Below are positions 3,428 to 23,594 of a DNA stretch of 64,000 nt, piece after piece. The DNA comes from an uncultured Burkholderiales bacterium (GTDB lineage Bacteria > Pseudomonadota > Gammaproteobacteria > Burkholderiales > Burkholderiaceae_C): NCBI GenBank assembly GCA_945952065.1, contig CAMFGY010000012.1, positions 62,001 through 126,000 of the forward strand, written 5' to 3'. The notes under the pieces were generated by a model, which saw nothing but the letters and a program-made list of their open reading frames with translations, was not told the origin of the DNA and did no database searches. Within the stretch, counting starts at the first letter, position 1; each line of letters starts with the position of its first letter. The position numbers and the translations under genes are program-made.

Positions 3428-4309
3428 TCAGCGCGGCGCAGCCAAGCCCTGGGCCAAGGCCTCATAAACGACTTGTATCCGCCGCGAGGTGCGCAGCTCA
3501 CGGTGCGTGACCAGCCAAATCGGGAAACGCACCGGCGGCACTTCGTCCAGCACGCGCCGCAAGCCGGGGGTGTTTTGGGCGATCTCGTCCATCATGGCGC
3601 CGATGCCCAGGCCTTGTTGGACCAAGGCCAGATGTGGCACCGAATGGTCACAGTAGCAGCTGAAATTGGCCTCGCTCAGAGGCAGGCCGTGTTGGCGCAG
3701 ATAGTTGAGAAAGCGGCCGCTGCGATCCGTGCCCACAAAGGGCAGGCGGGCGGCTTCGTCGGCGCTTCGCGGGTGACCATATGTCCGCACCCATGCTTCC
3801 GAGGCGTAGAAGCCGGCCGTCGCTTCGCGGATCAGCTTGGCAATCAAGTCGGGCTGGTCGGGCTTGACGTGGCGAATTGCAATATCGGCTTCTCGGCGCA
3901 AGAGGTCACTCAGTGCATTCGACGAGATCACCTCGATGGCAATGCCCGGCACCTGCTGGCGCAACTGCTGCACCAGCGGCGGCAATAGGTGAGCGGCAAC
4001 CGCGTCGCTGGCGGAGACGGACACCACCCCTTCCACCGCTTGTGAGTGACCGGTGGCTGCCAGATTCATGGCCTCGGCTGCGGCACCCATGGCGCGGACA
4101 TGTTCGAGCAAGTCCATGCCGGTGCTGGAGAGCTGCATGGCCCGGCCCACCCGTTCGAACAAGGTCACGCCCAGGCGCTGCTCGATGGCCGCCACTTGGC
4201 GGCTCAGCGTCGGCTGGGTCAAGCCCAGCTTGCGTGCCGCCGCCGACAGCGAGCCGGCCTCCGCCGTTTCAAGAAAAGCCCTGAGTTGGTTCCAATCCAG
4301 TTTATCCAT
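3428..4309 (-). CDS. LysR-family transcriptional regulator
   Basis: About 293 residues from MDKLDWNQLRAFLETAEAGS. The N-terminal winged helix-turn-helix is typical (SLSAAARKLGLTQPTLSRQV, then IEQRLGVTLFERVGR), with a C-terminal periplasmic-binding-like effector domain (READIAIRHVKPDQPDLI, then SVPHLALVQQGLGIGAMM). The start matches the usual LysR N-terminus; longer frames reach 4372. It is divergent from the methyltransferase at 4417, with about 107 bases between the starts. LysR proteins commonly regulate the divergent neighbour, so that gene is the first target to consider. The inducer is unknown. Confidence 0.9.
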   Translation of the reverse strand: MDKLDWNQLRAFLETAEAGSLSAAARKLGLTQPTLSRQVAAIEQRLGVTLFERVGRAMQLSSTGMDLLEHVRAMGAAAEAMNLAATGHSQAVEGVVSVSASDAVAAHLLPPLVQQLRQQVPGIAIEVISSNALSDLLRREADIAIRHVKPDQPDLIAKLIREATAGFYASEAWVRTYGHPRSADEAARLPFVGTDRSGRFLNYLRQHGLPLSEANFSCYCDHSVPHLALVQQGLGIGAMMDEIAQNTPGLRRVLDEVPPVRFPIWLVTHRELRTSRRIQVVYEALAQGLAAPR

Positions 4310-4416
4310 GCGCAAATGTATATGCCCTGTGCAAATTTCGGCGTATTCAGAAAGCAGGTGCATAGATAGCATGGGCCTGTCTCCAACTTGCCCCTGGACG
4401 TTCGTCCGCAGCCCTC

Positions 4417-5106
4417 ATGTCAACGCCGACCTTTGCTTCCCAGCCCCAAGCGGGCGCGTCCTTGGCCGACAGCGCCCGTAAAGCACGCTTTTGGGATCGC
4501 ATCGCCCGCAAGTACGCCGCCGACCCGATCGCCGATCCGGCCGGCTACGAGGCCACGCTGGCGCGGGTGCAAGAGCTGCTGGCGCCCACGCACGAAGTCT
4601 TGGAACTGGGCTGCGGCACCGGCAGCACCGCGCTGCGCCTAGCACCCGGTACCCGTCGCTACCTGGCCACCGATGTGTCCAGCCGCATGATTGACATCGC
4701 ACGCGAAAAACTGGCACAGCAGCCGCTGCCGCAGCTCAGCTTTGCGCTGGCCGACGCCGATGCGCCCGACCTCACGCCCAGCGCCTATGACGCGGTGCTG
4801 GCCTTCAATCTGCTGCATCTGGTGGACGACTTGGACCAAACCCTCAAGCTGGCGAAACAAGCCCTGCGGCCCGGGGGCTTGTTGATCGCCAAAACGCCTT
4901 GCATCGGCGAGATGAATCCGCTCATTCCGCATGTGGCACTGCCGCTGATGCGGGCCATTGGCAAGGCGCCGCAGGTGCAATGCTTCAAGGCGCCAGCTTT
5001 GCAGGCGGCGTTTGAGCGCCAGGGTTTGGTGGTGCAAAGCCTGGAGCGCCATGGCACTCGGGGCAAAGACATTCGGGCCTTCATCGTGGCCTGCAAGCCC
5101 GGTTGA
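4417..5106 (+). CDS. Class I SAM-dependent methyltransferase
   Basis: 229 residues. Motif I, VLELGCGTGSTALRLAPG, lies around residues 61-78, followed by an acidic end to strand two (YLATDVSSRMIDIA) and the post-motif AFNLLHLVDDLDQTLKLAKQ. The order and spacing fit the methyltransferase type 11 fold, whose substrates are usually small molecules or lipids. No cysteine-rich or nucleic-acid-binding additions are seen. It stands alone on the plus strand and diverges from the LysR regulator, which suggests they form a regulator/target pair. The substrate is not predictable from sequence. Confidence 0.85.
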   Translation: MSTPTFASQPQAGASLADSARKARFWDRIARKYAADPIADPAGYEATLARVQELLAPTHEVLELGCGTGSTALRLAPGTRRYLATDVSSRMIDIAREKLAQQPLPQLSFALADADAPDLTPSAYDAVLAFNLLHLVDDLDQTLKLAKQALRPGGLLIAKTPCIGEMNPLIPHVALPLMRAIGKAPQVQCFKAPALQAAFERQGLVVQSLERHGTRGKDIRAFIVACKPG

Positions 5107-7270: not shown

Positions 7271-8485
7271 TCAGCGGATCAAGGCTTTGTCCAACTGGTC
7301 CCAGCCATAGGCGGCAGCCACGCGGGCGCGAATCTCGCGCACCACCACACCGCCATCGTCGCCATTGCTCATGATGACCACGCCGTAGCCCTTGAGCACA
7401 TGGCCGGTCAACTCACATTGAAAGCCCCAGTTGGAGCCGCCGTGCATGAAGTACCAGCCCTGGCCACGCATCTCCAGTTGCAAGCCCACGGCAAAGGGGC
7501 CGCTGCCCACCGGGCTGCTCATCTCCAGCGCGCCGTGTTGCGTCAGCACCTTTCCCAGGCCCACCCCGCGCCGAGCCTGCTGCACTTCGATCATGAAGCG
7601 CGCCAGGTCGGTCGGTGTGGTCCACAAGCCCGCCGCCGCTTGCTCGGGGTAGACATGCCAGGGCGCACCCATGCGCTGACCTTTGTGGTTATGGGCAAAG
7701 GCCAGACGGGGCGCCCAGCTGGCAGGTGGCGGCTGCTGAAAACTGCTGCCCGTCATGCCCAAGGGGGCCAGCACCGTGCTTTGCATCAGCTCGGCAAAGG
7801 GCTGGCCCGTCAAATCGGTGAGGGCTTGCTGCATGATCAGCGAGCCGCCGCCGGAATACTTCGCCGCTTGGTAGGGCGGGCGGCTGAAGCGTACACCGCT
7901 CACATTGGCGAGCTTGTTGTCCCCCTCGATGATCTGCACCACGCTGGGCAAGGGCGCATCGGGCGCATAGCCCGGGAAGCCAAAGCCATCGTCCGAGCCC
8001 GAGCTGTGGCTCAAGAGCGCGCGCGGCGTGACTGGCTGCGCGCGGGTCAGCTCGGTTTGCGGCACCTTCCAGGCGCGCAGCATCGTGTTGACATCGGCAT
8101 CCAGCGACAAGCGTCCGTCTTGCGCCAGCTTCACCGCCGCCATCGCCATCACCGGTTTGGAAATCGACGCCGCCTGGAAGGCCGTGCTCACATCCACCGC
8201 CCGCCCGGATTCCACATCGGCCACGCCATAGGCCTTGGCCCAGTGGATCTTGAAGTCTTTCACCACCGCGATGCTGAGGCCTGGTACGCCAAACTTCTTC
8301 ATCAGCTCTTGCAGCGAGAGGCCGTCGAGCCCGCCGCGGTTGGGCGTTTGCGCGGCTTCGATTTGGGCGATCAGCGGGGTGGCGGCTGATGTTGAGGCTG
8401 CTGGCACTTCGGCCGCTTGGGCGGCAGACAGTGCTGCCGTTGTAGCCAGTGCGAGCAGCAGAGTCAGGGGCTTGAGTTTGGGCAT
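7271..8485 (-). CDS. Serine hydrolase of the class C beta-lactamase / penicillin-binding family
   Basis: About 404 residues from MPKLKPLTLLLALATTAALS, a Sec signal cut near AQAAE. The active-site motifs of the family are present: S107-I-S-K110 (SxxK), Y210-S-G (the YxN position, here YSG), and HGGSNWGF near the C-terminus in place of the KTG box. Members include beta-lactamases, D-amino-acid peptidases and esterases. The YSG and HGG variants argue against a true beta-lactamase and suit an esterase or peptidase of this superfamily. It is in the same orientation as the upstream prolyl oligopeptidase, with about 150 bases between. Confidence 0.85.
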   Translation of the reverse strand: MPKLKPLTLLLALATTAALSAAQAAEVPAASTSAATPLIAQIEAAQTPNRGGLDGLSLQELMKKFGVPGLSIAVVKDFKIHWAKAYGVADVESGRAVDVSTAFQAASISKPVMAMAAVKLAQDGRLSLDADVNTMLRAWKVPQTELTRAQPVTPRALLSHSSGSDDGFGFPGYAPDAPLPSVVQIIEGDNKLANVSGVRFSRPPYQAAKYSGGGSLIMQQALTDLTGQPFAELMQSTVLAPLGMTGSSFQQPPPASWAPRLAFAHNHKGQRMGAPWHVYPEQAAAGLWTTPTDLARFMIEVQQARRGVGLGKVLTQHGALEMSSPVGSGPFAVGLQLEMRGQGWYFMHGGSNWGFQCELTGHVLKGYGVVIMSNGDDGGVVVREIRARVAAAYGWDQLDKALIR

Positions 8486-8642
8486 GCGCTGTCTTTCGAA
8501 GGATGGCTTGGCCGGGCCAAGCCTGCGGGGGGGGCGGGCGGCTGCCGAGCGCGAGTCTTGGGACCGAAGGGTTGAAGTTCTGAAGGGCTGAACCTCGTTC
8601 AACCTTGCCCCAAGCCCTCGCAGTCAGGCATTCCGCGGGGTC

Positions 8643-10871
<2,229 letters not shown>

Positions 10872-11110
10872 TGAAATTGGTCTCCGGCGCGGGGCTTGGA
10901 ATTTGTGAGCCCGAAGCGTAACCCACGCGCCGAGCAGCTGGGCCTGCGGCTGGCACTGAGAGCGGGTGGAGCGCTTGCCGCTTTGAAGTCTTTTTTTGCG
11001 GCGCAAGAGGATGGGCCAGCAAGACCATCGCTGACGCCGACTTGCACCGCTGCAAGCTTTCGGCTCGGCCAGTGGCCCCGAGTCATGGGGTCAATTCGTC
11101 AACCCACTGT

Positions 11111-13495: not shown

Positions 13496-13515
13496 GAGAT
13501 TTAAGACCTGACCCC
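13496..13515 (-). repeat. GGGGTCAGG-type repeat, copy 1 (single arm)
   Basis: Reads GAGATTTAAGACCTGACCCC on the plus strand, so the core GGGGTCAGGTCTTAAAT lies on the minus strand. It is the outermost copy of the cluster on this side of the nuclease-NTPase gene. Confidence 0.75.
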
Positions 13516-13534
13516 GGTTTTCTCGCAAGCCAGT

Positions 13535-13580
13535 GGGTCAGGCCTTAAATTTCTAGCCTATAAATTCAAGGCCTGACCCT
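13535..13580. repeat. GGGTCAGG-type inverted pair, copies 2 and 3
   Basis: Arm one is GGGTCAGGCCTTAAATTT at 13535-13552 and arm two is AAATTCAAGGCCTGACCCT at 13562-13580. They are complementary with a single mismatch and separated by a nine-base loop, giving a strong hairpin. No T-tract follows, so it is not a typical terminator. Confidence 0.85.
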
Positions 13581-13666: not shown

Positions 13667-13728
13667 GGGGTCAGGTATTAAATCGTTAACAACGGAAGGG
13701 TTAGATTAACGATTAAAGACTTGACCCC
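13667..13728. repeat. GGGGTCAGG-type inverted pair, copies 4 and 5
   Basis: The arms at 13667-13689 and 13706-13728 (starting GGGGTCAGGTATTAAATCGT and ending ATTAAAGACTTGACCCC) are imperfectly complementary over about 23 bases, with a 16-base loop. The element ends eight bases before the stop codon of the nuclease-NTPase gene and could also help end its transcript. Confidence 0.85.
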
Positions 13729-13736
13729 AAGCTGTG

Positions 13737-15989
13737 TTAATCGCTAATGCTGGATGCGTCGGTCCAGATAGTATCAGTGGACAAGGTCAACTCTGCTCTA
13801 ATTTTATTCATCCTGTCGGTGTGTCTGCGGATCGGCCGATATGCATCGCCGTTTTGACCTCTGAATTTCTCAATCGCACCTTCGTTGATCAATATCTTTA
13901 GAATTTTGTTGACAATCTTTGGGTCGAATTTTTGACCGTAGCCACCCTTCAGAAGTGCGCTCTCTTCTCGGGCGCCACCAGGTTGGAAGAAGATCTTTTG
14001 GATTATTGACAACAACAGCTTTTGAGGTGCGCTAAGTGGGCTGTCCTTAATACGTGCTGCATTTGAAATTCGATCAAATTCGATTACATCGCAGTTCTTT
14101 ATCCATTCGGGAAGGCCGGTGGTGGATGATATTCCTGATAATTTGCTTACAAGGCAATTTTCAATTTGAAGGTTGTTGATTGATGTGATGTCTGTGCCAC
14201 TTATAATTAAAAGTTCAATAACCGATTCTCGAATGGATAGGTTGGAGATCTTGGTGCCATTAAGTCGTAATAATGGGAACTCGCCGCCGATGACGGTAAG
14301 TGCCTTGAAGTCCATTGCCTCAGTTCCAAAAATGGAAAGTAGGCTAATAATCTCTGAGAGTCGTTTTGTATTTTTACTTTCGCCATACTTGCCGAAATAC
14401 GAGAAACAAAGTTGCCGAAGATCGAAGGCCTCGATCATGTTGGCCGCATATATGGCCCCCATCGGAGAAAGAGATTGCTTCCATTGGTTGTGGCCTATTT
14501 CATCGGCCATGCTGATGATGTCCGACACAAGTTTCTCAGCACGTAGAACATCGGCCATGCTGTGGTCGATGAACTGGCGATCAGGTGACTCTGGTTCAAT
14601 TCGGCCCAATGTGCACATTCTTGCAAGAAGTTGCCGCCCTGTTTCGTCCGGGGTTGAACCTACAGACCGTTCATAAGCGTCATTAAGGTCTCCAGGGGAG
14701 AAGCGGCCTAAGAAGCTCTCGGAATATCTGGACTTTGATGCCAATGCAAGCAGAATGGCGCGAATAGTTGAAGGGGGTATTGAGTGCTTAACCCCAGCAG
14801 ACTCTCTTCGGCACACAGCCAATAGGAATAGTCCCCAAAACTGAAATTCGCCAAATTCCTTTTCGAATAGTGCCGCAATTTCTGTCTTGGGGAGGGCTGC
14901 CAACATTTGAAAGACTAGTGGCTTTCTTGGTAACCAATTCGGAACAGTAGCAACTACTCCAAGTTGTTTGAGGTAATCTTGTCCTTCTGATGGGGTGAAT
15001 AGTTCTGGTGCATTTACAATCAAAGTCGTGCTGTTTTTGCCGCTTAATCCAAGGCAGTTGAGCATCTCCTCGTCGCCATCGAAAAAATGAGATCTTCCGG
15101 AAATTATTAGACCGGCCTTTGATTTTAGGATTAGGTCCTTTACGCCTTCTAGTGCATTTCTTCGAATTCCCGCTCTGTCTTCTAATTTTAATTCATGGGT
15201 CTGCGCGCCGACTTCATCAAAGCCATCCAGAAGAAGGATGAGGTGGCCGGAGTTAAGTAGTTTTATTGCGTTGTCAATTGATCCGGATAGCCCAACTGAG
15301 GTTAGGTGGCCTGCGAGGATCGCTGCAGCGTTTGAACTACTCCAGTGCTCCCTGAGGTTTATTGCAATAGGGTATCCGCCAGCCGACTTGATGTCGGTCG
15401 CAATGTCGTTAAATACTTCCTTTATACAGCGACTCTTGCCTGTTCCATAGTCTCCGGTAAGAACAATTTGGTCGCCGTTGATTAATTTTCTTGCAATGTC
15501 TTTTGCATTTATATGTTCTTTGTTGTTGTCTACGCTATACCGAACCTCAATAAATTTATTTTTATCATTTTCGCCTGTTTGGGCGTCAACTGCGCTCCCG
15601 AACGGGCGCTGGGCGCGTAAGTTTGTGTAGGCCTCGAAATCAAAAAAATCTCGCTGAAACTCTCTTATGCTGCAGACTCTAATTTTTGACTCTCGGCCCA
15701 TTTCCTCCATGCTTAATGTCGGTTCCTCGGCAAGGATGACGAAAGCACGGCAAATGAATCCATCCAAAGCTAGCTTAACTCTGGTTGGGATTATTTTGTT
15801 TATGTCGGCACGTACTTTTTCAAGGTTTCGCTCTTTAGTTATCTCGATGATGACTATTTCTTCTGAGGACGGGCGAACTACAGCGTCGTAATCGACTCCA
15901 GCAATATGTTCTTGGTTGCATTGTGCGTTCCAACGAATCCTAGCTATTGAGCGGACCTGTTCTTCTAGGTTTTGCCAATTTGCTCGCAT
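13737..15989 (-). CDS. PD-(D/E)xK nuclease - NACHT/STAND NTPase fusion, candidate anti-phage defence protein
   Basis: About 750 residues. I place the start at ATG 15989 because GAGGGA stands seven bases upstream; a TTG extension to 16067 lacks a good ribosome site. Residues 1-60 carry GVDYDAVV (D35) and IIEITKE (E49, K52), spaced like the D-E-x-K core of Mrr/Cap4-type nucleases. The NTPase has Walker A GDYGTGKS (residues 179-186), Walker B LILLLDGFDE (D255 to E259) with the NACHT-type DGhDE signature, and GLIISGRSHFF as sensor 1. A weak leucine-rich-like region and a winged-helix-like C-terminus follow. Known relatives (Avs and bNACHT proteins) sense phage products and trigger the effector. 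The gene is AT-richer than its neighbours, stands alone and is flanked by palindromic repeats. Defence function is inferred. Confidence 0.75.
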   Translation of the reverse strand: MRANWQNLEEQVRSIARIRWNAQCNQEHIAGVDYDAVVRPSSEEIVIIEITKERNLEKVRADINKIIPTRVKLALDGFICRAFVILAEEPTLSMEEMGRESKIRVCSIREFQRDFFDFEAYTNLRAQRPFGSAVDAQTGENDKNKFIEVRYSVDNNKEHINAKDIARKLINGDQIVLTGDYGTGKSRCIKEVFNDIATDIKSAGGYPIAINLREHWSSSNAAAILAGHLTSVGLSGSIDNAIKLLNSGHLILLLDGFDEVGAQTHELKLEDRAGIRRNALEGVKDLILKSKAGLIISGRSHFFDGDEEMLNCLGLSGKNSTTLIVNAPELFTPSEGQDYLKQLGVVATVPNWLPRKPLVFQMLAALPKTEIAALFEKEFGEFQFWGLFLLAVCRRESAGVKHSIPPSTIRAILLALASKSRYSESFLGRFSPGDLNDAYERSVGSTPDETGRQLLARMCTLGRIEPESPDRQFIDHSMADVLRAEKLVSDIISMADEIGHNQWKQSLSPMGAIYAANMIEAFDLRQLCFSYFGKYGESKNTKRLSEIISLLSIFGTEAMDFKALTVIGGEFPLLRLNGTKISNLSIRESVIELLIISGTDITSINNLQIENCLVSKLSGISSTTGLPEWIKNCDVIEFDRISNAARIKDSPLSAPQKLLLSIIQKIFFQPGGAREESALLKGGYGQKFDPKIVNKILKILINEGAIEKFRGQNGDAYRPIRRHTDRMNKIRAELTLSTDTIWTDASSISD

Positions 15990-16314
15990 TAATGGTCCCT
16001 CATTTGTGCAATTGTCGATTCTGAATAACGTGTCATCCGATGCCTTTGAATTCTCATTGACTATCAAGGAAGGCCAGGGTCAGGCCTTAAGTTTTAAGTC
16101 CAAACCTTCACAACTTGTCTGAGCCGACTGGCCCTAACAGTTTAGATCAGCAGGTTGCTGGCAAACGCTCTTACCGCAGCAAGCCGTGAGGCCGACGCCG
16201 CTTTGGCCTAGGGGTCAAGCGATGGTCGTTTCCAAGCCGACGCACGAGTTCCCGAGCCTTTCATCTCTGCTGGCATGATGCCCCCAGTTTTTCGCTACCT
16301 GCCTGCCACCCATC
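15990..16314. other. Intergenic region with one GGGTCAGG repeat
   Basis: It contains the ribosome site and promoter side of the nuclease-NTPase gene, the repeat at 16076-16094, and then a return to high-GC sequence before the DUF502 gene. No other gene is supported here. Confidence 0.5.
16076..16094 (+). repeat. GGGTCAGG-type repeat, copy 6 (upstream flank of the nuclease-NTPase gene)
   Basis: Reads AGGGTCAGGCCTTAAGTTT. It has the same core as copies 1-5 but lies on the other side of the nuclease-NTPase gene, so the family brackets the gene. A short TTTTAAGTCC follows, possibly a reduced second arm. Confidence 0.8.
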
Positions 16315-17001
16315 ATGCCCACCCCCCAAGCCTTTACCGCTCAAGCGCGTCGTCACGTCCTGCGCACCTTTGTCACCGGCTTTTTGGCGGTGTTGCCCTT
16401 GGTGGCCACGCTGGTGTTGCTGGGCTGGGTGATGTCTTTGCTGATGGACTATCTGGGGCCCAAGAGTGTGTTGGGCCATGCCTTGGGGCGGGTGGGTTTA
16501 CGGCTGACTGAGTCGCCTTTGGCCGCATACTTGATCGGGCTGGGCGTGGTGCTGGTGTTGGTGTATCTGCTGGGCTTGCTGGTGGAGACGCAGTTGCAGC
16601 GCCGGGTGAAGGCGCTGCTGGAAAGCCTGATTGCGCGCATCCCGGTGATCAGTACCGTCTACGACCTGCTCAAGCGCATGATCGAGATGATGTCCAAGCG
16701 CGACGAGGCCGGCGTGCGGGCGATGGCGCCGGTGTGGTGCCATTTCGGGGGCGTCAAGCCCGAGGGCAATGCGCTGGTGCTGGGCTTGTTGTCCAGCCCG
16801 GAGCCGGTGGAGATTGGCGGGGTGGCCTATCTTGCGGTGCTGGTGCCCACTGCGCCGGTGCCGGTGGGCGGCGGCTTGTTTTACCTGCCGCAAGACTGGG
16901 TGCGCCCGGCCGAGATCGGCATGGAAGGGCTGACCAGCCTCTATGTGTCCATGGGTGTAACCACGCCTGAGGTGCTGGGCAAGCCCAAGCAAACGGGCTG
17001 A
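16315..17001 (+). CDS. DUF502 family inner-membrane protein
   Basis: 228 residues. Two strong membrane segments are visible, TFVTGFLAVLPLVATLVLLG and YLIGLGVVLVLVYLLGLL, and the conserved family block RIPVISTVYDLLKRMIEMMS lies near residues 108-127. The C-terminal soluble part (VYLAVLVPTAPVPVGGGLFY-like sequence) is also typical of the family. DUF502 proteins are widespread in proteobacteria, and their molecular role is not established. It is a single gene on the plus strand and convergent with the phosphatase at 17024. Confidence 0.88.
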   Translation: MPTPQAFTAQARRHVLRTFVTGFLAVLPLVATLVLLGWVMSLLMDYLGPKSVLGHALGRVGLRLTESPLAAYLIGLGVVLVLVYLLGLLVETQLQRRVKALLESLIARIPVISTVYDLLKRMIEMMSKRDEAGVRAMAPVWCHFGGVKPEGNALVLGLLSSPEPVEIGGVAYLAVLVPTAPVPVGGGLFYLPQDWVRPAEIGMEGLTSLYVSMGVTTPEVLGKPKQTG

Positions 17002-17023
17002 GCCGGCGACGAGCGCGCGACGA

Positions 17024-17509
17024 TCAAGCCGGAAACAGGTGCCGCCGCAAGCCCTCGCAAGCGTCTTCCACAAGGTCAAGCACTCGCTCAAAGCCCTCGG
17101 GGCCGCCGTAATACGGGTCAGGCACGGCATCGGCTGTTTGATCGTGCAGGCAGAACTCGGTCAGCAGGCGCAGCTTGCTGTGCGGCTGGTCGGCCGGGCA
17201 GCGCTGGCGCAGCAGGGCGAGGTTGTTGGCGTCCATGGCCAGCAAGAGGTCGAAGTGGGCATAGTCGCTGGGCTGCACCTGGCGGGCGCGCAGGGCTGAC
17301 ATGTCGATGCCGCGTTGCCGCGCATGGGCCTGCGAGCGCGGGTCGGGTGGCTCGCCGATGTGATAACCGTGAGTTCCGGCGGAGTCCACTTCGCAGCGGT
17401 GCGCCAGGCCATGGGCGCGCAGCTGCTCACGGAACACCGCTTCGGCACTGGGGCTGCGGCAAATATTGCCCATGCAAACAAACAAAACGCGGATTGGCTC
17501 AGAACTCAT
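17024..17509 (-). CDS. Low-molecular-weight protein-tyrosine phosphatase
   Basis: About 161 residues from MSSEPIRVLFVCMGNICRSP. The P-loop CMGNICRS (C12 to R18, the CX5R motif) starts right after the first strand, and the general-acid loop VPDPYYGGPEGF is near the C-terminus; both are diagnostic. The enzyme removes phosphate from tyrosine, or arginine in some relatives. In bacteria it often partners a BY-kinase in polysaccharide export, but no kinase gene is adjacent. It follows the GMC oxidoreductase gene by about 70 bases on the same strand and might share its transcript. Confidence 0.93.
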   Translation of the reverse strand: MSSEPIRVLFVCMGNICRSPSAEAVFREQLRAHGLAHRCEVDSAGTHGYHIGEPPDPRSQAHARQRGIDMSALRARQVQPSDYAHFDLLLAMDANNLALLRQRCPADQPHSKLRLLTEFCLHDQTADAVPDPYYGGPEGFERVLDLVEDACEGLRRHLFPA

Positions 17510-17577
17510 GGCGGGGCAAAACAAGGAGCTGGGGAACAGCCGGCATTGTGCCTAGCCCTTGCGTCCCGGCTGGCCGC

Positions 17578-19197
17578 TTAGCCTTCAGCCACCAAGCGCA
17601 CCTCGCGGCCGTTCAGCCGTTTGGCCAGCGCCGTGGCCATGCGGGCGGCCTGGCTGTAGACCGTCATTTGCGGATTGGCGCCAATGCTGGTGGGGAAGAC
17701 CGAGCCGTCGTGGACCGAGAGATTGCTGATCTGCCAATGCTGGCCGTCCGGCCGCACCACGCCCAGCTCGGCGCTGCCGGCCATATTGCAGCCGCCCATC
17801 ACATGGGCGCTGCCGATGGTGACGATGTAGGGCCGGTAGGGCAGGGCCAAGAGGGCGGCCTGCGCTTCTTTCCAACTGCTGTAGGGCTTGGCCATGTCGT
17901 GGGCGGGCCGCACGCTTTTCGCGCCAGCGGCGAATTGGATCTCGGCCATGGTCAGGTGCGCGCGGCGGGCCCCGTCCAGCAAGTAGTCGGTGATGGGGTA
18001 GTCCAGCACCGGGCTGCCGTCGCTTTTGAGCTTGACGGTGCCGCCATTGGCCTGTGGGTGAAAGCCGTCCCGCAGCAGGCCGATCAAGACGCTGGTGTGC
18101 GGGAAGTCTCTGGCCTTGTCCACCAAGGTTTGGCCCAGGCCCCCGAGGTTGGTCATGGCAAAGCCGGGGTGCACCGGTGCGGTTTCCAGCTTGTAGCCGA
18201 TCGGGCCGTCCATTGCCTGCGTGTGCAAGAAATGGTCGGAGAACACCGCCAGCGGTGCGCCGGCCCAGCCGTTCACCGCCTCGGGCATGACGCCGCCGCT
18301 GGCCACCGTGGGATGCAAAAAGGTGCGTTTGCCCAAGCGCTGGTGCGGGTCGGGCAGGTGCGAGCGCATCAAGAGCGCGGGCGAGTTGATGGCGCCGCCC
18401 GCCACCACATAGTGCTTGGCCTTGACTTGCAAGGCCGGGCCGGCCGCGCTGCCGTCCATATGGACGGGCAGGCAGCTCAGGCTATCGATCTGCTCGCCGT
18501 TCCAGCTGAAGCGCTCGGCGCGGGTTTGCACCAGCAGGCGCGCGCCAAGGTCCAGCGCGGCCGGGATGGTGGTGACCAGCATGGATTGCTTGGCATTGGT
18601 GGGGCAGCCCAGGCCGCAAGAGCCGAGGTTCCAGCAGCCTTTGACATTGCGGTTGATGACGGGGGCCGGAATGCCCAGCTTCACCGCACCCCGCTGAAGC
18701 ACGCTGTTATTGCCGTTCGGCTCGGTCAGCCAGGGGCTGATGTTGAGGCGCTGTTCCACTTGCTCGAACCAGGGCGTCATGCTGGCGTCGCTGATGTCTT
18801 TGAGCCCGTAGTGCTGGGCCCAGTAGTCCAGGGTTTCACTCGGCGTGCGGAAGGAGCCGGCCCAGTTCACCGTGGTCGTGCCGCCCACGCAGCGGCCTTG
18901 CAGCACGGGCATGGCTTGGTCGGCGGTCTTGCGGCCGCCGCTTTCTTGGTAGAGCTGCGAGTAGGCATCGGACTCGCGTTGGCGGAAGTCGCTGCTGGAC
19001 TTCAGCGGCCCTTCTTCAATGATCAGCACCCGCAGGCCGGCCTTGGCCAGCAACTCGGCGCTGATGCCCGCACCGGCGCCGCTGCCGATGATGGCCACAT
19101 CGCAGTCGATGCGCTCGGGCAATGGTTTTTGTCCAGGGCCAAACACCTGCCAGCCGCGCGCCAGGCCTTCTTTGATGGGGTCGGCAATCGAGCTCAT
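17578..19197 (-). CDS. GMC-family FAD-dependent oxidoreductase
   Basis: 539 residues. The FAD-binding Rossmann motif VAIIGSGAGAGISAELLAKA is near residues 34-53, and the C-terminal catalytic region contains AHVMGGCNM with the conserved histidine. Family members oxidise alcohols (choline, cholesterol, long-chain alcohols, sugars). It is the last gene of a tight three-gene operon: its start overlaps the stop of the small Tat-signal gene by four bases, and an aldehyde dehydrogenase lies first. Together they suggest stepwise alcohol-to-aldehyde-to-acid oxidation. It has no signal peptide of its own, so it may be cytoplasmic or ride with the Tat-targeted partner. Confidence 0.9.
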   Translation of the reverse strand: MSSIADPIKEGLARGWQVFGPGQKPLPERIDCDVAIIGSGAGAGISAELLAKAGLRVLIIEEGPLKSSSDFRQRESDAYSQLYQESGGRKTADQAMPVLQGRCVGGTTTVNWAGSFRTPSETLDYWAQHYGLKDISDASMTPWFEQVEQRLNISPWLTEPNGNNSVLQRGAVKLGIPAPVINRNVKGCWNLGSCGLGCPTNAKQSMLVTTIPAALDLGARLLVQTRAERFSWNGEQIDSLSCLPVHMDGSAAGPALQVKAKHYVVAGGAINSPALLMRSHLPDPHQRLGKRTFLHPTVASGGVMPEAVNGWAGAPLAVFSDHFLHTQAMDGPIGYKLETAPVHPGFAMTNLGGLGQTLVDKARDFPHTSVLIGLLRDGFHPQANGGTVKLKSDGSPVLDYPITDYLLDGARRAHLTMAEIQFAAGAKSVRPAHDMAKPYSSWKEAQAALLALPYRPYIVTIGSAHVMGGCNMAGSAELGVVRPDGQHWQISNLSVHDGSVFPTSIGANPQMTVYSQAARMATALAKRLNGREVRLVAEG

Positions 19198-19712
19198 GGA
19201 ATGGTCCTCGGTCCAGGGTAGCCGACCAGTGCCCAGCTGCTCGGGTCATTGAAAAAGATCAGCGTGTTGAGATCGCGCAGCGCGTGGTAGACCTGCTGGC
19301 GCAGGCCCAGGCTGGACTGGCTCATGGCCTGCAGCGCGGCTTGCACCTCGGCCATCGAGGCCTTGGCCCAGTCGCTGCTCAAACCGGTCAGGCCCAGGCG
19401 GCCGGGGGCTGTGTCCAAGAGCATCAAGACCTTGGAGAGCTCGGCGCGCAGCGCAGGCGGAAAGCCGGCGATGCCGGCTTCCAGCTGGCTCAGATGCAGG
19501 GCCAAGCGGGCTTCGCGCGCGGCCGGCTCCTGCGGCAGCAGGCCGTCGAACAAGGCCAGGGCCACGGCGCGCATCAGCTGGCGGGCCGGCTCGCCCAGTT
19601 TTCTGTTGTCTTCATGCAGGCCGGGCTTGAGCAGCAGCGCTGCGGCGCCGCCGGCCACGGCCAGCACCACGCCGGCGCCCAGGCCGAGTTTGAGCAAACT
19701 GCGTCTTTGCAT
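19194..19712 (-). CDS. Tat-signal small subunit, gluconate 2-dehydrogenase subunit 3-like
   Basis: 172 residues. The N-terminus MQRRSLLKLGLGAGVVLAVA has a twin-arginine-type signal. The remaining helical part (LMRAVALALFDGLLP, then SLGLRQQVYHALRDLNTLIF and a final SSWALVGYPGP) resembles the small subunit that accompanies GMC oxidoreductases such as gluconate 2-dehydrogenase. In those complexes the small subunit supports folding and export of the flavoprotein. It starts one base after the aldehyde dehydrogenase stop and overlaps the GMC start by four bases, so translational coupling is likely. Confidence 0.75.
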   Translation of the reverse strand: MQRRSLLKLGLGAGVVLAVAGGAAALLLKPGLHEDNRKLGEPARQLMRAVALALFDGLLPQEPAAREARLALHLSQLEAGIAGFPPALRAELSKVLMLLDTAPGRLGLTGLSSDWAKASMAEVQAALQAMSQSSLGLRQQVYHALRDLNTLIFFNDPSSWALVGYPGPRTIP

Positions 19713-19713
19713 C

Positions 19714-21126
19714 TCAGGCGACCTTTTTCAACAGACCCAGCAAGCGGCTGAAGGTCTGGCCATAAGGCGGGTAAAAGAGCTTGGTGCCCGCAAAGCGGGC
19801 TTGGCGGAAGACCGGCTTTTCTTTGCTGAAGGTGCGAAAGCCCCATTCACCGTGATAGCTGCCCATGCCGCTGGCGCCCACGCCGCCAAACGGTTGCTCC
19901 TCCTGGCCCAGATGCCAGATGCAGTCGTTGATGGTGACGCCGCCGGCATGGCTTTGCTCCATCACGCGCTGCTGCATGGCGCGGTCTTGGCCAAACCAAT
20001 ACAGGGCCAGCGGGCGCTCGTGGCGGTTGATGTAGGCCAGCGCTTCGTCCACGCGGTCATAGGCCACGATGGGCAGCAGCGGGCCGAAGATTTCTTCGCG
20101 CATCACCGTCATCTCGTCGTTCACATCCAGCAGCAGATGCGGCGTGAGTGCGCGGCCGCTCGGCGGCGGCCCCTCGTGCGAGGGCAGCAGGCGTGCGCCG
20201 CGGGCTTTGGCATCGTCCAGCAGGCCTTGCAAGCGGGCGCGGTGGCGCTCGCTGGCGATGTGGGTGTAGTCGGCATTGCCCTCCAGCGTGGGGTACATCT
20301 TGCGCATGGCTTGCAAGATGGCTTGGGCCAGCGGCTCCACCATGTCGCGCGGCGCCAGCACGTAGTCGGGCGCCACACAGGTTTGGCCGGCGTTCAAGAG
20401 CTTGCCGTAGGCCAGACGTTCGGCGGTGAGTTGCAGATGGCAGCTGCGGTCCACCAGGGCTGGGCTCTTGCCGCCCAGCTCCAGGGTCACGGGGGTCAGG
20501 TGTTGCGCGGCGGCTTGCGCCACATGGCGGCCCACAGCGGTGGAGCCGGTGAAGAACAAATGGTCAAAAGGCAGCTGACAAAAGGCGCGGCCCACTTCGG
20601 CATCGCCGGTGATGACCTGCATTTCTTCGGGGGCGAAGAACTCGGCCACCATGCGGGCCATCAGGGCTGAGGTCTCGGGGGTGAGCTCCGAGGGCTTGAT
20701 GAGCACCCGGTTGCCCGCCGCCAAGGCGGCCAGCGCCGGGGCCATGGCCAGGTAGAAGGGGTAGTTCCACGGCGCAACCACGCCCACCACGCCCAAGGGC
20801 TGGCGCAGCAGCCGGTTGCTGCCCGGCAAGAAGTGCAAGGCGGTGGGCACGCGGCGCGTGCGCATCCAGCGGCGCAGCTGCTTTTGAGCATGCTTGGCGC
20901 CGGACTCGACGGTGAACACATCGGCCAGCAAGGTCTCTTGCTTGGCGCGGTTGCCAAAGTCTTGCGAGATCGCAGCCGCCAGATGCTCGGCGTACTTTTC
21001 CGTCATGCGGCGCACCCGCTGCAGACGGTCGTGCCGCGCCGCATGGCTGGGGTACATCTCCGTTTGGAAAGCAGCGCGTTGCAATTCAAGCGCCAAGTGC
21101 AGACGCTCTTGCAAGGTCTGGTTCAT
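19714..21126 (-). CDS. Aldehyde dehydrogenase, coniferyl-aldehyde-dehydrogenase-like
   Basis: About 470 residues from MNQTLQERLHLALELQRAAF, with AGGAGA eight bases upstream. ALDH motifs are complete: VVAPWNYPFYLAMAPALAAL, the cofactor-site FFTGSTAVGRHVA, the glutamate in LELGGKSPALVD, and the catalytic cysteine in LNAGQTCVAPDYVL. The C-terminus GMGSYHGEWGFRTFSKEKPV matches the class 3-like, short ALDH group that includes coniferyl aldehyde dehydrogenase. It probably converts the aldehyde made by the GMC enzyme downstream. It heads the operon. Confidence 0.9.
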   Translation of the reverse strand: MNQTLQERLHLALELQRAAFQTEMYPSHAARHDRLQRVRRMTEKYAEHLAAAISQDFGNRAKQETLLADVFTVESGAKHAQKQLRRWMRTRRVPTALHFLPGSNRLLRQPLGVVGVVAPWNYPFYLAMAPALAALAAGNRVLIKPSELTPETSALMARMVAEFFAPEEMQVITGDAEVGRAFCQLPFDHLFFTGSTAVGRHVAQAAAQHLTPVTLELGGKSPALVDRSCHLQLTAERLAYGKLLNAGQTCVAPDYVLAPRDMVEPLAQAILQAMRKMYPTLEGNADYTHIASERHRARLQGLLDDAKARGARLLPSHEGPPPSGRALTPHLLLDVNDEMTVMREEIFGPLLPIVAYDRVDEALAYINRHERPLALYWFGQDRAMQQRVMEQSHAGGVTINDCIWHLGQEEQPFGGVGASGMGSYHGEWGFRTFSKEKPVFRQARFAGTKLFYPPYGQTFSRLLGLLKKVA

Positions 21127-21323
21127 CGCAGTCTCCTGGGCATTCATTCTTATGCTCCGAGGCTAAGCGCAAAGCTGCTTCAGGCCAAGGGGAATGGCCC
21201 TTGGCTAGAGGCAGCTGCCTAGGAATGCAAACCTTGCTTCGGAGGGGGCTGCAATTCAGGCGTGCACTTTCAGCGCGCAGCGGCTATCGTGCGGCTTTGT
21301 TTCTCAGCCAAGGAGACCATTCC

Positions 21324-21929
21324 ATGATGACCCAAGTGATGAGCCGCAGCCTGTGTGTGCTGGCCCTGCCTTTGCTGCTGGGCGCTTGCGCGGTGCATGT
21401 GCATGAGCAGCAACATAGGGGCACTAAACCCATGGAATCCAAGGATGCGATGCATGAGCACATGGCCCAGATGATGGGCAAGATGGGGGCCGCCAGCCTT
21501 TCGCCCTTGGCAAGCGGCGCGCCGGTGTCGGGCCTGGTGGTGTTCCATCAGATGGAGGGGCATTTGATGGCGCATGTGAAGCTGCGCGGTCTGGAGCCCA
21601 TGAGCGTGCATGGCTTCCATGTGCATGAAAAATCATCCTGCGCCAGCGCCGACTTCAGCAGCGCCGGTGGCCACTTCAACCCCGATGGCAAGGCGCATGG
21701 CGATCAAAGCGGCGAACGCCATGCGGGCGATATGCCCAACCTCACCGCCGACGCGCAAGGCAATGTCGACCAGAAAATCATGTTGCATGGCGTGACGCTG
21801 GCCGCAGGGGAGCGTGGCATCGAAGGCCGCACGGTGATCGTGCATGCCAACCCCGATGACTTCAAATCGCAACCCGCCGGCAACTCCGGGCCGCGCATTG
21901 CCTGCGGCGTGATTGCCCGCCATGGCTGA
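21324..21929 (+). CDS. sodC: Lipoprotein Cu-Zn superoxide dismutase
   Basis: About 201 residues from MMTQVMSRSLCVLALPLLLG, with AAGGAGA upstream. A lipobox LLLGAC gives a membrane-anchored periplasmic enzyme. A histidine/methionine-rich linker (MHEHMAQMMGKM) precedes the SOD domain, with metal ligands in VHGFHVHE and GGHFNPDGKAHG and the C-terminal cysteine in GPRIACGVI. It removes superoxide in the periplasm. The linker may carry extra copper-binding capacity. The gene stands alone and converges on purH across a shared terminator. Confidence 0.92.
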   Translation: MMTQVMSRSLCVLALPLLLGACAVHVHEQQHRGTKPMESKDAMHEHMAQMMGKMGAASLSPLASGAPVSGLVVFHQMEGHLMAHVKLRGLEPMSVHGFHVHEKSSCASADFSSAGGHFNPDGKAHGDQSGERHAGDMPNLTADAQGNVDQKIMLHGVTLAAGERGIEGRTVIVHANPDDFKSQPAGNSGPRIACGVIARHG

Positions 21930-21942
21930 TTGAGTCCAGACG

Positions 21943-21972
21943 AAAAAAAGCCCGCAGCAGCGGGCTTTTTTA
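21943..21972. terminator. Bidirectional intrinsic terminator between sodC and purH
   Basis: A-run, GCCCGC stem, short AGCA loop, GCGGGC stem and T-run. The sequence is symmetric with A and T tracts on both sides, so it can end both the plus-strand sodC and the minus-strand purH transcripts. Confidence 0.92.
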
Positions 21973-22013
21973 TCGGCGGGTCCAGCAAATAGCAGGGGCT
22001 GACCCAAGAAGCC

Positions 22014-23594
22014 TCAATGGCGGAAGTGGCGCACGCCGGTGAAGACCATGGCCACGCCGCGCTCATTGGCGGCGGCGATCACTTCTTCATCGCGCATCGA
22101 GCCGCCGGGTTGGATGACGCAAGTGGCGCCGGCATCGGCCAGCACATCCAGGCCGTCGCGGAAGGGGAAGAAGGCGTCGCTGGCGACCACCGAGCCCTTC
22201 AGCTCCAGGCCCGCATTGGCGGCCTTGATGGCTGCGATCTTGGTGGAGTCGACCCGGCTCATCTGGCCCGCGCCCACGCCCAGAGTCATGCCGCCGCCGC
22301 AGAAGACGATGGCATTGCTCTTCACATACTGGGCCACGGTCCAAGCGAACATCAAATCATCCAGCTGCTGGGCGCTGGGCTGCAGCGTGGTGACGATCTT
22401 CAGGTCTTCCTTCTTCAGGAAATGGTTGTCGGCGCTTTGCAGCAGGATGCCGGAGCCGATGCGCTTGCTGTCGGTCAGATTGCGGCCTTGCTGCCAGGGT
22501 GTAGCCCCGCCGGGCGGCAGGTCGATCTGCAGCAGACGCACATTGACCTTGGCCTTGAAGATCTCCAGCGCTTCGGCGCTGAAGCTCGGCGCCATCAGCA
22601 CTTCAACGAATTGCTTGGCCACATGGGCGGCTGCGGCGCCGTCCACCTCGCGGTTGAAGGCGATGATGCCGCCGAAGGCGCTGGTCGGGTCGGTCTTGAG
22701 GGCCTTGGCATAGGCCTCGGCAGGGGTGGCCGCCACGGCCACGCCGCAGGGGTTGGCGTGCTTGACGATCACGCAAGCAGGGGCGTCGAAGCTCTTCACG
22801 CATTCCCAGGCCGCGTCGGAGTCGGCGATATTGTTGTAGCTGAGTTCCTTGCCTTGCACTTGCTTGGCGGTGACCAGAGAGCCGGGGGCGGGGTGCAGAT
22901 CGCGGTAAAGCGCGGCAGTCTGGTGGCTGTTTTCACCGTAGCGCAGGTCTTGCACCTTGATGAAGCTGCTGTTCATCTGGCCGGGGTACTCGGACAGCGC
23001 GCCGTCTTCGGTGCGGGCGCTCAGGTAGTTGCTGATTGCCGCGTCGTATTGAGCGATGCGGTTGAAGGCGGCCACGCTGCAGGCGAAGCGGGTCTTGTCG
23101 CTGGTTTTGCCGGCGCTCTTCAGTTCTTCGAGCACGGCGGCGTACTGGCTGGCGTCGGTCAGCACGGTGACGTCTTTCCAGTTCTTGGCGGCGCTGCGCA
23201 CCATGGCCGGGCCGCCGATGTCGATGTTCTCGATGGCGTCTTCCAGCGTGCAGCCGGGCTTGGCCACGGTGGCTTCAAAGGGGTAAAGGTTGACGGCCAG
23301 GATGTCGATCATGGTGATGCCGTGCTGCGCCGCGGCGGCCATGTGCTCGGGGAAGTCGCGGCGCGCCAGCAGGCCGCCATGCACCTTGGGGTGCAGGGTC
23401 TTGACGCGACCGTCCAACATCTCGGGGAAGCCGGTGTGGTCGGCCACCTCGGTCACCGGCAGGCCGGCATCCGCCAGCAGCTTGGCCGTGCCGCCGGTGG
23501 ACAGCAGGCGCACGTTCAGGGCGTGCAGCGCTTTGGCGAATTCGAGGATGCCGGTCTTGTCGGACACGGAGATGAGGGCGGTCAGTTGGGACAT
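22014..23594 (-). CDS. purH: Bifunctional AICAR transformylase / IMP cyclohydrolase
   Basis: 526 residues, the usual PurH length. The N-terminal cyclohydrolase domain opens with [20 protein letters not shown] and has STGGTAKLL and [19 protein letters not shown]. The C-terminal transformylase carries [16 protein letters not shown] and [12 protein letters not shown], and ends with the [17 protein letters not shown] block. It performs the last two steps of IMP synthesis in the cytoplasm. It follows fis by 47 bases on the same strand, an arrangement common in betaproteobacteria, so dusB-fis-purH is probably one operon. Confidence 0.98.

Follow-up and report, generated by a model that had tools for sequence, protein, structure and literature searches.

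Bacterial STAND NTPases follow a general scheme in which the C-terminal part senses, ATP drives assembly, and the N-terminal effector becomes activated (PMC12169576, PMC12724215, PMC12931631; these and the papers below are cited from the parts available). Avs1-4 act through nuclease effectors (PMC12931631). The nuclease-NACHT proteins bNACHT25 and bNACHT32 of clade 6 degrade DNA on infection, and their nuclease is required (PMC12169576). STAND NTPases with an Mrr_cat effector and C-terminal repeats are reported from the anti-phage hotspot of P4 (PMC9122126).

We analysed a gene in a 64,000-nucleotide stretch of an uncultured Burkholderiales genome, hereafter the window. The gene is a bacterial relative of the animal NOD-like immune receptors, and its protein is best read as a variant of the bacterial NACHT-nuclease (bNACHT/Avs) kind. 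Compared by description, bNACHT25 and bNACHT32 are also single proteins with an N-terminal PD-(D/E)XK nuclease, a central NACHT, and a C-terminal sensor; in the available part of that paper they end in a helical NCH1 domain, whereas a pentapeptide stretch and a winged helix stand here (PMC12169576). None of the 17 Pfam families matched by 64 members of the family is a NACHT helical domain, in a Pfam copy whose inclusion of the NCH1 model is unconfirmed. The STAND NTPases of the P4 satellite hotspot are alike, again by description, in their Mrr-type nuclease effector and C-terminal repeats, and the validated protein of that hotspot, with a TIR effector and TPRs in the available text, is unlike the present one (PMC9122126). 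DS-8, a metallophosphatase-NACHT protein, shares the single-protein NACHT defence plan and a weak ATPase similarity (E 0.001; PMC13092281, available part), but it has another effector, and the score against its 994-position model is 16.9 against a cut-off of 790.

The first-pass annotation had proposed comparison with the Avs models. The protein resembles Avs1-4 in being a STAND ATPase with an N-terminal effector; however, the models of Avs2 and Avs4 have 1379 and 1579 positions, against 750 residues here. The only match to Avs2 (E 0.0047) covers 64 residues of its model, the match to Avs4 has an E-value of 0.24, and Avs membership was rejected. What stood of the suggested placement was the combination of nuclease, NACHT, and sensor in a single non-housekeeping gene outside the PADLOC 2023 models. 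The whole protein fits no PADLOC 2023, Pfam, or PHROGs model (64 members searched) and no NCBIfam model (window protein searched). The family phrog_18297, of unknown function, matches 45 of the 64 members, in the window protein at the ATPase. No description of a nuclease-NACHT-pentapeptide-winged-helix protein was found in the literature searched, outside which the main bNACHT, Avs, and NLR-like papers lie, and the family may already be part of a published clade without a name of its own.

Gene and domain architecture

The open reading frame lies where the first-pass annotation had placed it (Table 1). Its ATG is preceded closely by GAGGGA, and several homologues (e.g., L024-L026) are alignable from residue 1, so that an upstream TTG (16067) is unneeded as a start. 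As had been claimed, the gene is AT-richer than its surroundings, with a GC content of 0.454 (0.455 at third codon positions) against 0.643 in the rest of the window. Its neighbours there are acyltransferase-like and DUF502-like genes, named from their sequences. An Rfam search gave no match, and a promoter and terminator scan gave counts below those in shuffles.

Table 1. Features of the gene and its flanks, in window positions
Feature	Position	Strand	Basis or detail
Whole gene, 750 aa	13737..15989	minus	ATG start, TAA stop; homologues found
Mrr-like PD-(D/E)XK nuclease domain, residues 1-128 (slice chosen here)	15606..15989	minus	D35, E49, T51, K58, D62, K65; hhalign and conservation
NACHT ATPase core, residues 161-310	15060..15509	minus	Walker A 179-186, DGFDE 255-259, R299; Pfam NACHT
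Rest of NACHT module (inferred), residues 311-545	14355..15059	minus	Co-linear with the 1642-aa L212 protein to about residue 479
Acidic pentapeptide-type stretch, residues 546-628 (boundaries set here)	14106..14354	minus	Period and profile; least conserved of six parts
Basic winged-helix-like domain, residues 640-750	13740..14072	minus	K665, Q669, G671, R674, G682, P719, R721
Three REP-like repeat copies (GGGTCAGGYCTTRAATTT, 0-1 mismatches)	13497..13579	.	Downstream of gene
Inverted repeat, 23-nt arms, REP-like type	13667..13728	.	8 nt after stop codon
REP-like repeat	16077..16110	+	Upstream of gene

Nuclease-like N-terminal domain

By profile comparison, the N-terminal domain is Mrr-like. 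A profile of 63 N-domains aligned with 27 Mrr_cat sequences (27 of 30 loci) in hhalign at 94.5% (E 8.2e-8, 107 columns, residues 1-113), and the controls, namely reversed Mrr, an unrelated profile, and 12 column-shuffled versions, reached at most 0.7%. The nuclease had been confined to residues 1-60 in the annotation, which the match over residues 1-113 rules out. Against PDB sequences, the N-domain profile found nothing usable (best E 0.76). With its nuclease half, the CARF4-PDDEXK model of PADLOC had matches in three genomes (E 1e-4, 0.003, and 0.026), in open frames with the lengths of members L041, L027, and L030, respectively.

Two of the three residues of the proposed D35/E49/K52 core are conserved. 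D35 is kept in 72 of the 78 rows (72 of 73 ungapped) and E49 in 76, and both align with acidic/Q positions of the Mrr_cat profile. K52 is lysine in only 23 of the 78 rows and was rejected as the catalytic lysine. The conserved lysine is K58 (74/78), and D62 (69/78) and K/R65 (76/78) follow it; the stretch after E49 with these three residues is probably a helix. D35, E49, and K58 occur jointly in 68 of the 78 rows, and of the ten rows that lack the full trio, five have a gap at D35. The motif of the family is thus D-x13-E-x-[TS]-x6-K. Unlike in Mrr_cat (PF04471), the usual lysine place has no lysine, and the conserved one lies seven residues further on. This superfamily has known cases of a lysine shifted into the next helix, and K58 may be catalytic in place of the E+2 lysine; catalysis through K58 is an assumption because the E+2 position is T or S in 77 of the 78 rows.

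One member (L051:8001-10235) keeps D35 and the checked ATPase residues and has lost both E49 and K58. It is possibly a nuclease-dead natural variant, judging from these residues.

NACHT ATPase and C-terminal half

The ATPase motifs named in the annotation are confirmed by their conservation. The Walker A residues G179, K185, and S186 are each kept in 77 of the 78 rows, the one failing row (L092) being probably a wrong-frame ORF pick. The letters of D255-G-F-D-E259 are kept in 75 to 78 rows, and the downstream arginine, R299, in all 78. Pfam NACHT was matched by 59 of the 64 members; the window protein alone scored 23.5 bits in hmmscan and 27 bits in the genome search, against a cut-off of 26.7.

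The repeats that had been described as a divergent region are present, but as an acidic stretch of the pentapeptide type instead. Residues 560-620 have a hydrophobic period of 2.5 residues with a power of 6.31, against 1.02 (sd 0.39) in column shuffles, none of 300 of which was as high. In a profile search against PDB, residues 546-618 matched pentapeptide-repeat proteins weakly (E 0.005-0.07), and Pfam Pentapeptide_4 was matched by only one of the 64 members. The stretch carries -8.0 charges per 100 aa, and its conservation (0.369) is the lowest of the six parts compared.

The claimed winged-helix-like C-terminus is supported by a short match of residues 676-716 to GntR-type winged helices (38 columns, 77%), for which two controls gave 0.1%. 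Against PDB sequences, the profile of this domain found nothing usable (best E 0.069). The C-terminal part has a mean of +7.1 charges per 100 aa and a conservation of 0.471, second to the NACHT core (0.541), and residues 659-673 score 0.662.

Two larger proteins share parts of this plan. The 1642-aa protein of genome G330 (L212:2337-7265) runs co-linear with the family profile over the nuclease and the NACHT module (99.2%, E 8e-20, 442 columns), with the same Mrr-like nuclease-NACHT order followed by a plain pentapeptide stretch. It differs by its canonical VECK (E-C-K) motif, a WD40-like end, and an extra ParA-like N-terminus, where the names ParA, pentapeptide, and WD40 are our own reading of its sequence. 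A 920-aa protein in genome G272 has a NACHT (98.6%), a pentapeptide stretch, and WD40-like repeats. In light of these two proteins, nuclease-NACHT-pentapeptide looks like an older plan, and the present family like its small winged-helix-ended version.

Family members and their distribution

Searches with the single sequence recovered the gene itself in 99 genomes of relatives (0 of 98 others), the gene itself and two partial matches in 369 genomes of the class, and no relative in scans of the genome and viral collections. With tblastn, full-length homologues were found in a gene on an Erwinia persicina plasmid (34%, E 6e-134) and in gp30 of Pseudomonas phage Haddon (27%, E 6e-63), together with two more, partial, plasmid matches. 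The three-way alignment of the window protein, the Erwinia protein, and Haddon gp30, used as a profile, was the only query that retrieved relatives in the genome and viral collections, and the counts of relatives are therefore lower bounds.

This profile gave 80 loci on genome contigs (80 of 81 kept), 78 of which match at least 600 query residues, with best-segment identities of 22-56%. On viral contigs it gave 11 loci, seven of full length and four with the ATPase region only or little more; among the seven, L013-L015 are probably copies, having the same coordinates and identity. Most ORF picks have 715-785 aa, for a family length of about 750 aa. Among the 80 genome copies, eight are interrupted or truncated, in some cases perhaps through sequencing errors. 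Alignment A2 took in 77 of 95 loci. Left out were the ATPase-only loci L011, L012, and L020-L023, the probable copies L014 and L015, the broken or short loci L053, L063, L066, L084, L095, L100, L101, and L102, and, for start or length, L088 and L098. The probably mis-framed L092 was kept in A2, and A3 additionally lacks L009, L010, L090, and L092.

At E 1e-20, the family profile found the gene in one of 198 genomes of relatives, its own (0 of 197 others), and in 4 of 398 genomes of the phylum, its own included, with the best few candidates per genome scored (the best five for the relatives, in the rows listed). The 69 tree rows with a known phylum, some of them metagenome bins, fall in nine phyla, and the phylum label changes 14 times on the tree, built by a quick method, against a least possible 8. 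The clade of the window protein (8 rows) includes Rhodanobacter, Synechococcus, Accumulibacter, Denitromonas, Bordetella petrii, Pseudomonas, and a viral contig. The gene is thus rare and patchy in its occurrence, and probably exchanged across wide distances.

Mobility and genomic site

In phage Haddon, gp30 is surrounded by hypothetical genes and situated between the repressor/methyltransferase/excisionase region and the endolysin; on its 37-kb plasmid, the Erwinia copy adjoins an integrase gene. Of 83 loci compared, 82 have the gene at a higher AT content than its flanks, 74 of them by more than 5 points, whereas the same holds for 9 of 307 other long ORFs. Two slight biases attach to these control ORFs: they were called by a home-made composition score, possibly favouring GC-rich ORFs, and their reference was the whole locus.

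A sister species (G012) is syntenic with the window at 7288-10925 (87%) and 16250-22366 (88%). Between these flanks, the window has the acyltransferase gene (GC 0.583) and the NACHT gene; in G012 they enclose an AT-rich block of four genes (GC 0.478 vs 0.648). The G012 block (L124:6481-11286) encodes a Dam-type methylase, a metallophosphoesterase, a P-loop ATPase, and a CARF6-type protein (PADLOC CARF6, E 1.8e-70), and it looks like a defence candidate. A Cupriavidus plasmid (NZ_CP080769.1, L214:2944-7831) keeps this gene order with a Dam methylase, a metallophosphoesterase, the P-loop ATPase (65%), and, in fourth place, a hypothetical gene; the comparison covered the first three.

REP-like repeats accompany the site. 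The repeat GGGTCAGGYMTTRAAT has seven exact copies in the 5.27-Mb genome, four of them beside the NACHT gene. A 12-base form of the REP-like repeat lies on both sides of the NACHT gene in the window, not beyond the acyltransferase, and at both edges of the G012 block (L124:6242 and 11619); it occurs once or twice in three of the four other sister regions examined. The REP-like repeat may mark or make the swap site. Elsewhere in the genome of the window, a REP-like copy (L130:2840) precedes a Y1_Tnp (RAYT-like) transposase gene. Two near-identical 243-aa methyltransferase-like genes of the same genome stand in tandem (L129:2443-3174 and 3985-4716), where repeat copies are 1541 bp apart; this tandem is likely a recent duplication.

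Gene neighbourhoods

The absence of an operon partner, noted for the window, holds across the family, which has no constant neighbour. With genes around the loci called by the home-made composition score, the nearest gene on either strand lies at a median of 354 bp upstream (n=76) and 438 bp downstream (n=79). The nearest neighbour is on the same strand and within 60 bp in 9 of 76 cases upstream and 4 of 79 downstream, and five of these close neighbours are probably pieces of a broken copy of the gene.

In all, 326 neighbours of at least 100 aa were selected within 3 kb. Five of them, which overlap the match of a broken copy and are likely its fragments, were dropped, and 321 were scanned. The PADLOC matches listed (the best 25 of 56, 25 of 42, and 21 of 21 families, counted as families and not as proteins) include type I and III restriction, a type IV enzyme, and mad2, mad3, and mad8. 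Pfam matches, examined for 116 of the 321, are mainly metabolic and transport families among the best 25 of 109. As a control, a scan of 131 of 132 genes in 24 regions from 11 of the same genomes gave matches to 24 PADLOC families, including RtcR, Zac (with ZacA and ZacB), helicase-like, and SduA. Enrichment of defence genes around the family loci is not clear against these control regions (321 neighbours vs 131 controls).

Function and alternative explanations

The protein is quite probably a compact NLR-like (STAND/NACHT) single-gene nuclease of defence. The domain order, the nuclease family, the conserved active-site-like and ATPase residues, and the mobility are supported by the sequence comparisons. 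Its role is probably to guard cells from phages or from other DNA that invades them. The first-pass annotation had called it a defence protein. This reading is a good one in view of the phage and plasmid carriers, the patchy spread, the foreign composition, the swap site, and the plan in common with proven bNACHT nucleases, while the neighbourhoods give it no clear support.

As to DNA substrate, oligomerisation, trigger, outcome, and activity, we infer the following course. At rest, the ATPase would keep the protein inactive. The C-terminal half, with its pentapeptide stretch and basic winged helix, would meet a sign of phage or foreign DNA, and the NACHT module would then exchange its nucleotide and oligomerise. 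Oligomerisation would unite the N-terminal Mrr-like nuclease domains, and DNA would be cut. The DNA may be that of the invader and probably also that of the cell, leading to abortive infection or growth arrest. Phages and plasmids would carry the gene, as they do other defence genes, to exclude competitors.

The carriers on phages, plasmids, and viral contigs and the AT-richness in nearly all loci would also fit a gene that serves the phages and plasmids themselves, selfish or of the addiction type, by punishing its loss or blocking competing elements, and not the host. We regard this as unlikely: no constant antidote gene stands alongside, and the window copy is chromosomal, or at least on a contig of more than 126 kb, at a swap site. 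The boundary between such a gene and defence carried by mobile elements is thin.

Another reading takes the protein as a STAND-type regulator whose winged helix binds DNA as the output and whose nuclease-like domain is a regulatory or DNA-binding remnant. The basic winged-helix-like end (+7.1), better conserved (0.471) than the repeat part (0.369), and the T or S at E+2 in 77 of 78 rows would suit it. Against it, D35, E49, and K58 persist in 72, 76, and 74 of the 78 rows, the domain order is common to the larger L212 protein with its canonical E-C-K, and no constant neighbour gene offers a target, so that we find a regulator rather improbable. Mrr-like and winged-helix domains occur in other DNA-processing proteins, but a host housekeeping or repair protein is hardly credible and, given the distribution, close to refuted: all 197 genomes of other relatives lacked a match (best five candidates per genome scored), as did 98 of 98 with the single sequence, the gene is interrupted or truncated at 8 of 80 genome loci (perhaps by sequencing errors in some), and the base composition is foreign. 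The refuting condition named in the first-pass annotation, conserved housekeeping homologues at fixed positions, was thus not borne out in these genomes.

Returning to the NLR-like defence nuclease, its sensor end admits a tentative proposal. Pentapeptide helices mimic DNA in Qnr and MfpA. Conceivably, though with the odds against it, the protein senses nucleic acid and not a phage protein: the acidic pentapeptide helix would hold the basic winged helix, an aberrant form of DNA or RNA made during infection would release it, and the nuclease, its lysine moved into the next helix, would cut.

Exact residues now define the family as scattered NLR-like nucleases encoded by one gene, which at about 750 aa are half as long as the Avs2 and Avs4 models and whose sensor end is unlike the TPR and NCH1 sensors of the papers compared, in the parts available. 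It is directly testable, since the member gp30 sits in a phage that forms plaques on a laboratory strain. The basic winged-helix-like domain is the best conserved part outside the ATPase core, which makes it testable whether bacterial NLRs sense proteins only or nucleic acids too.
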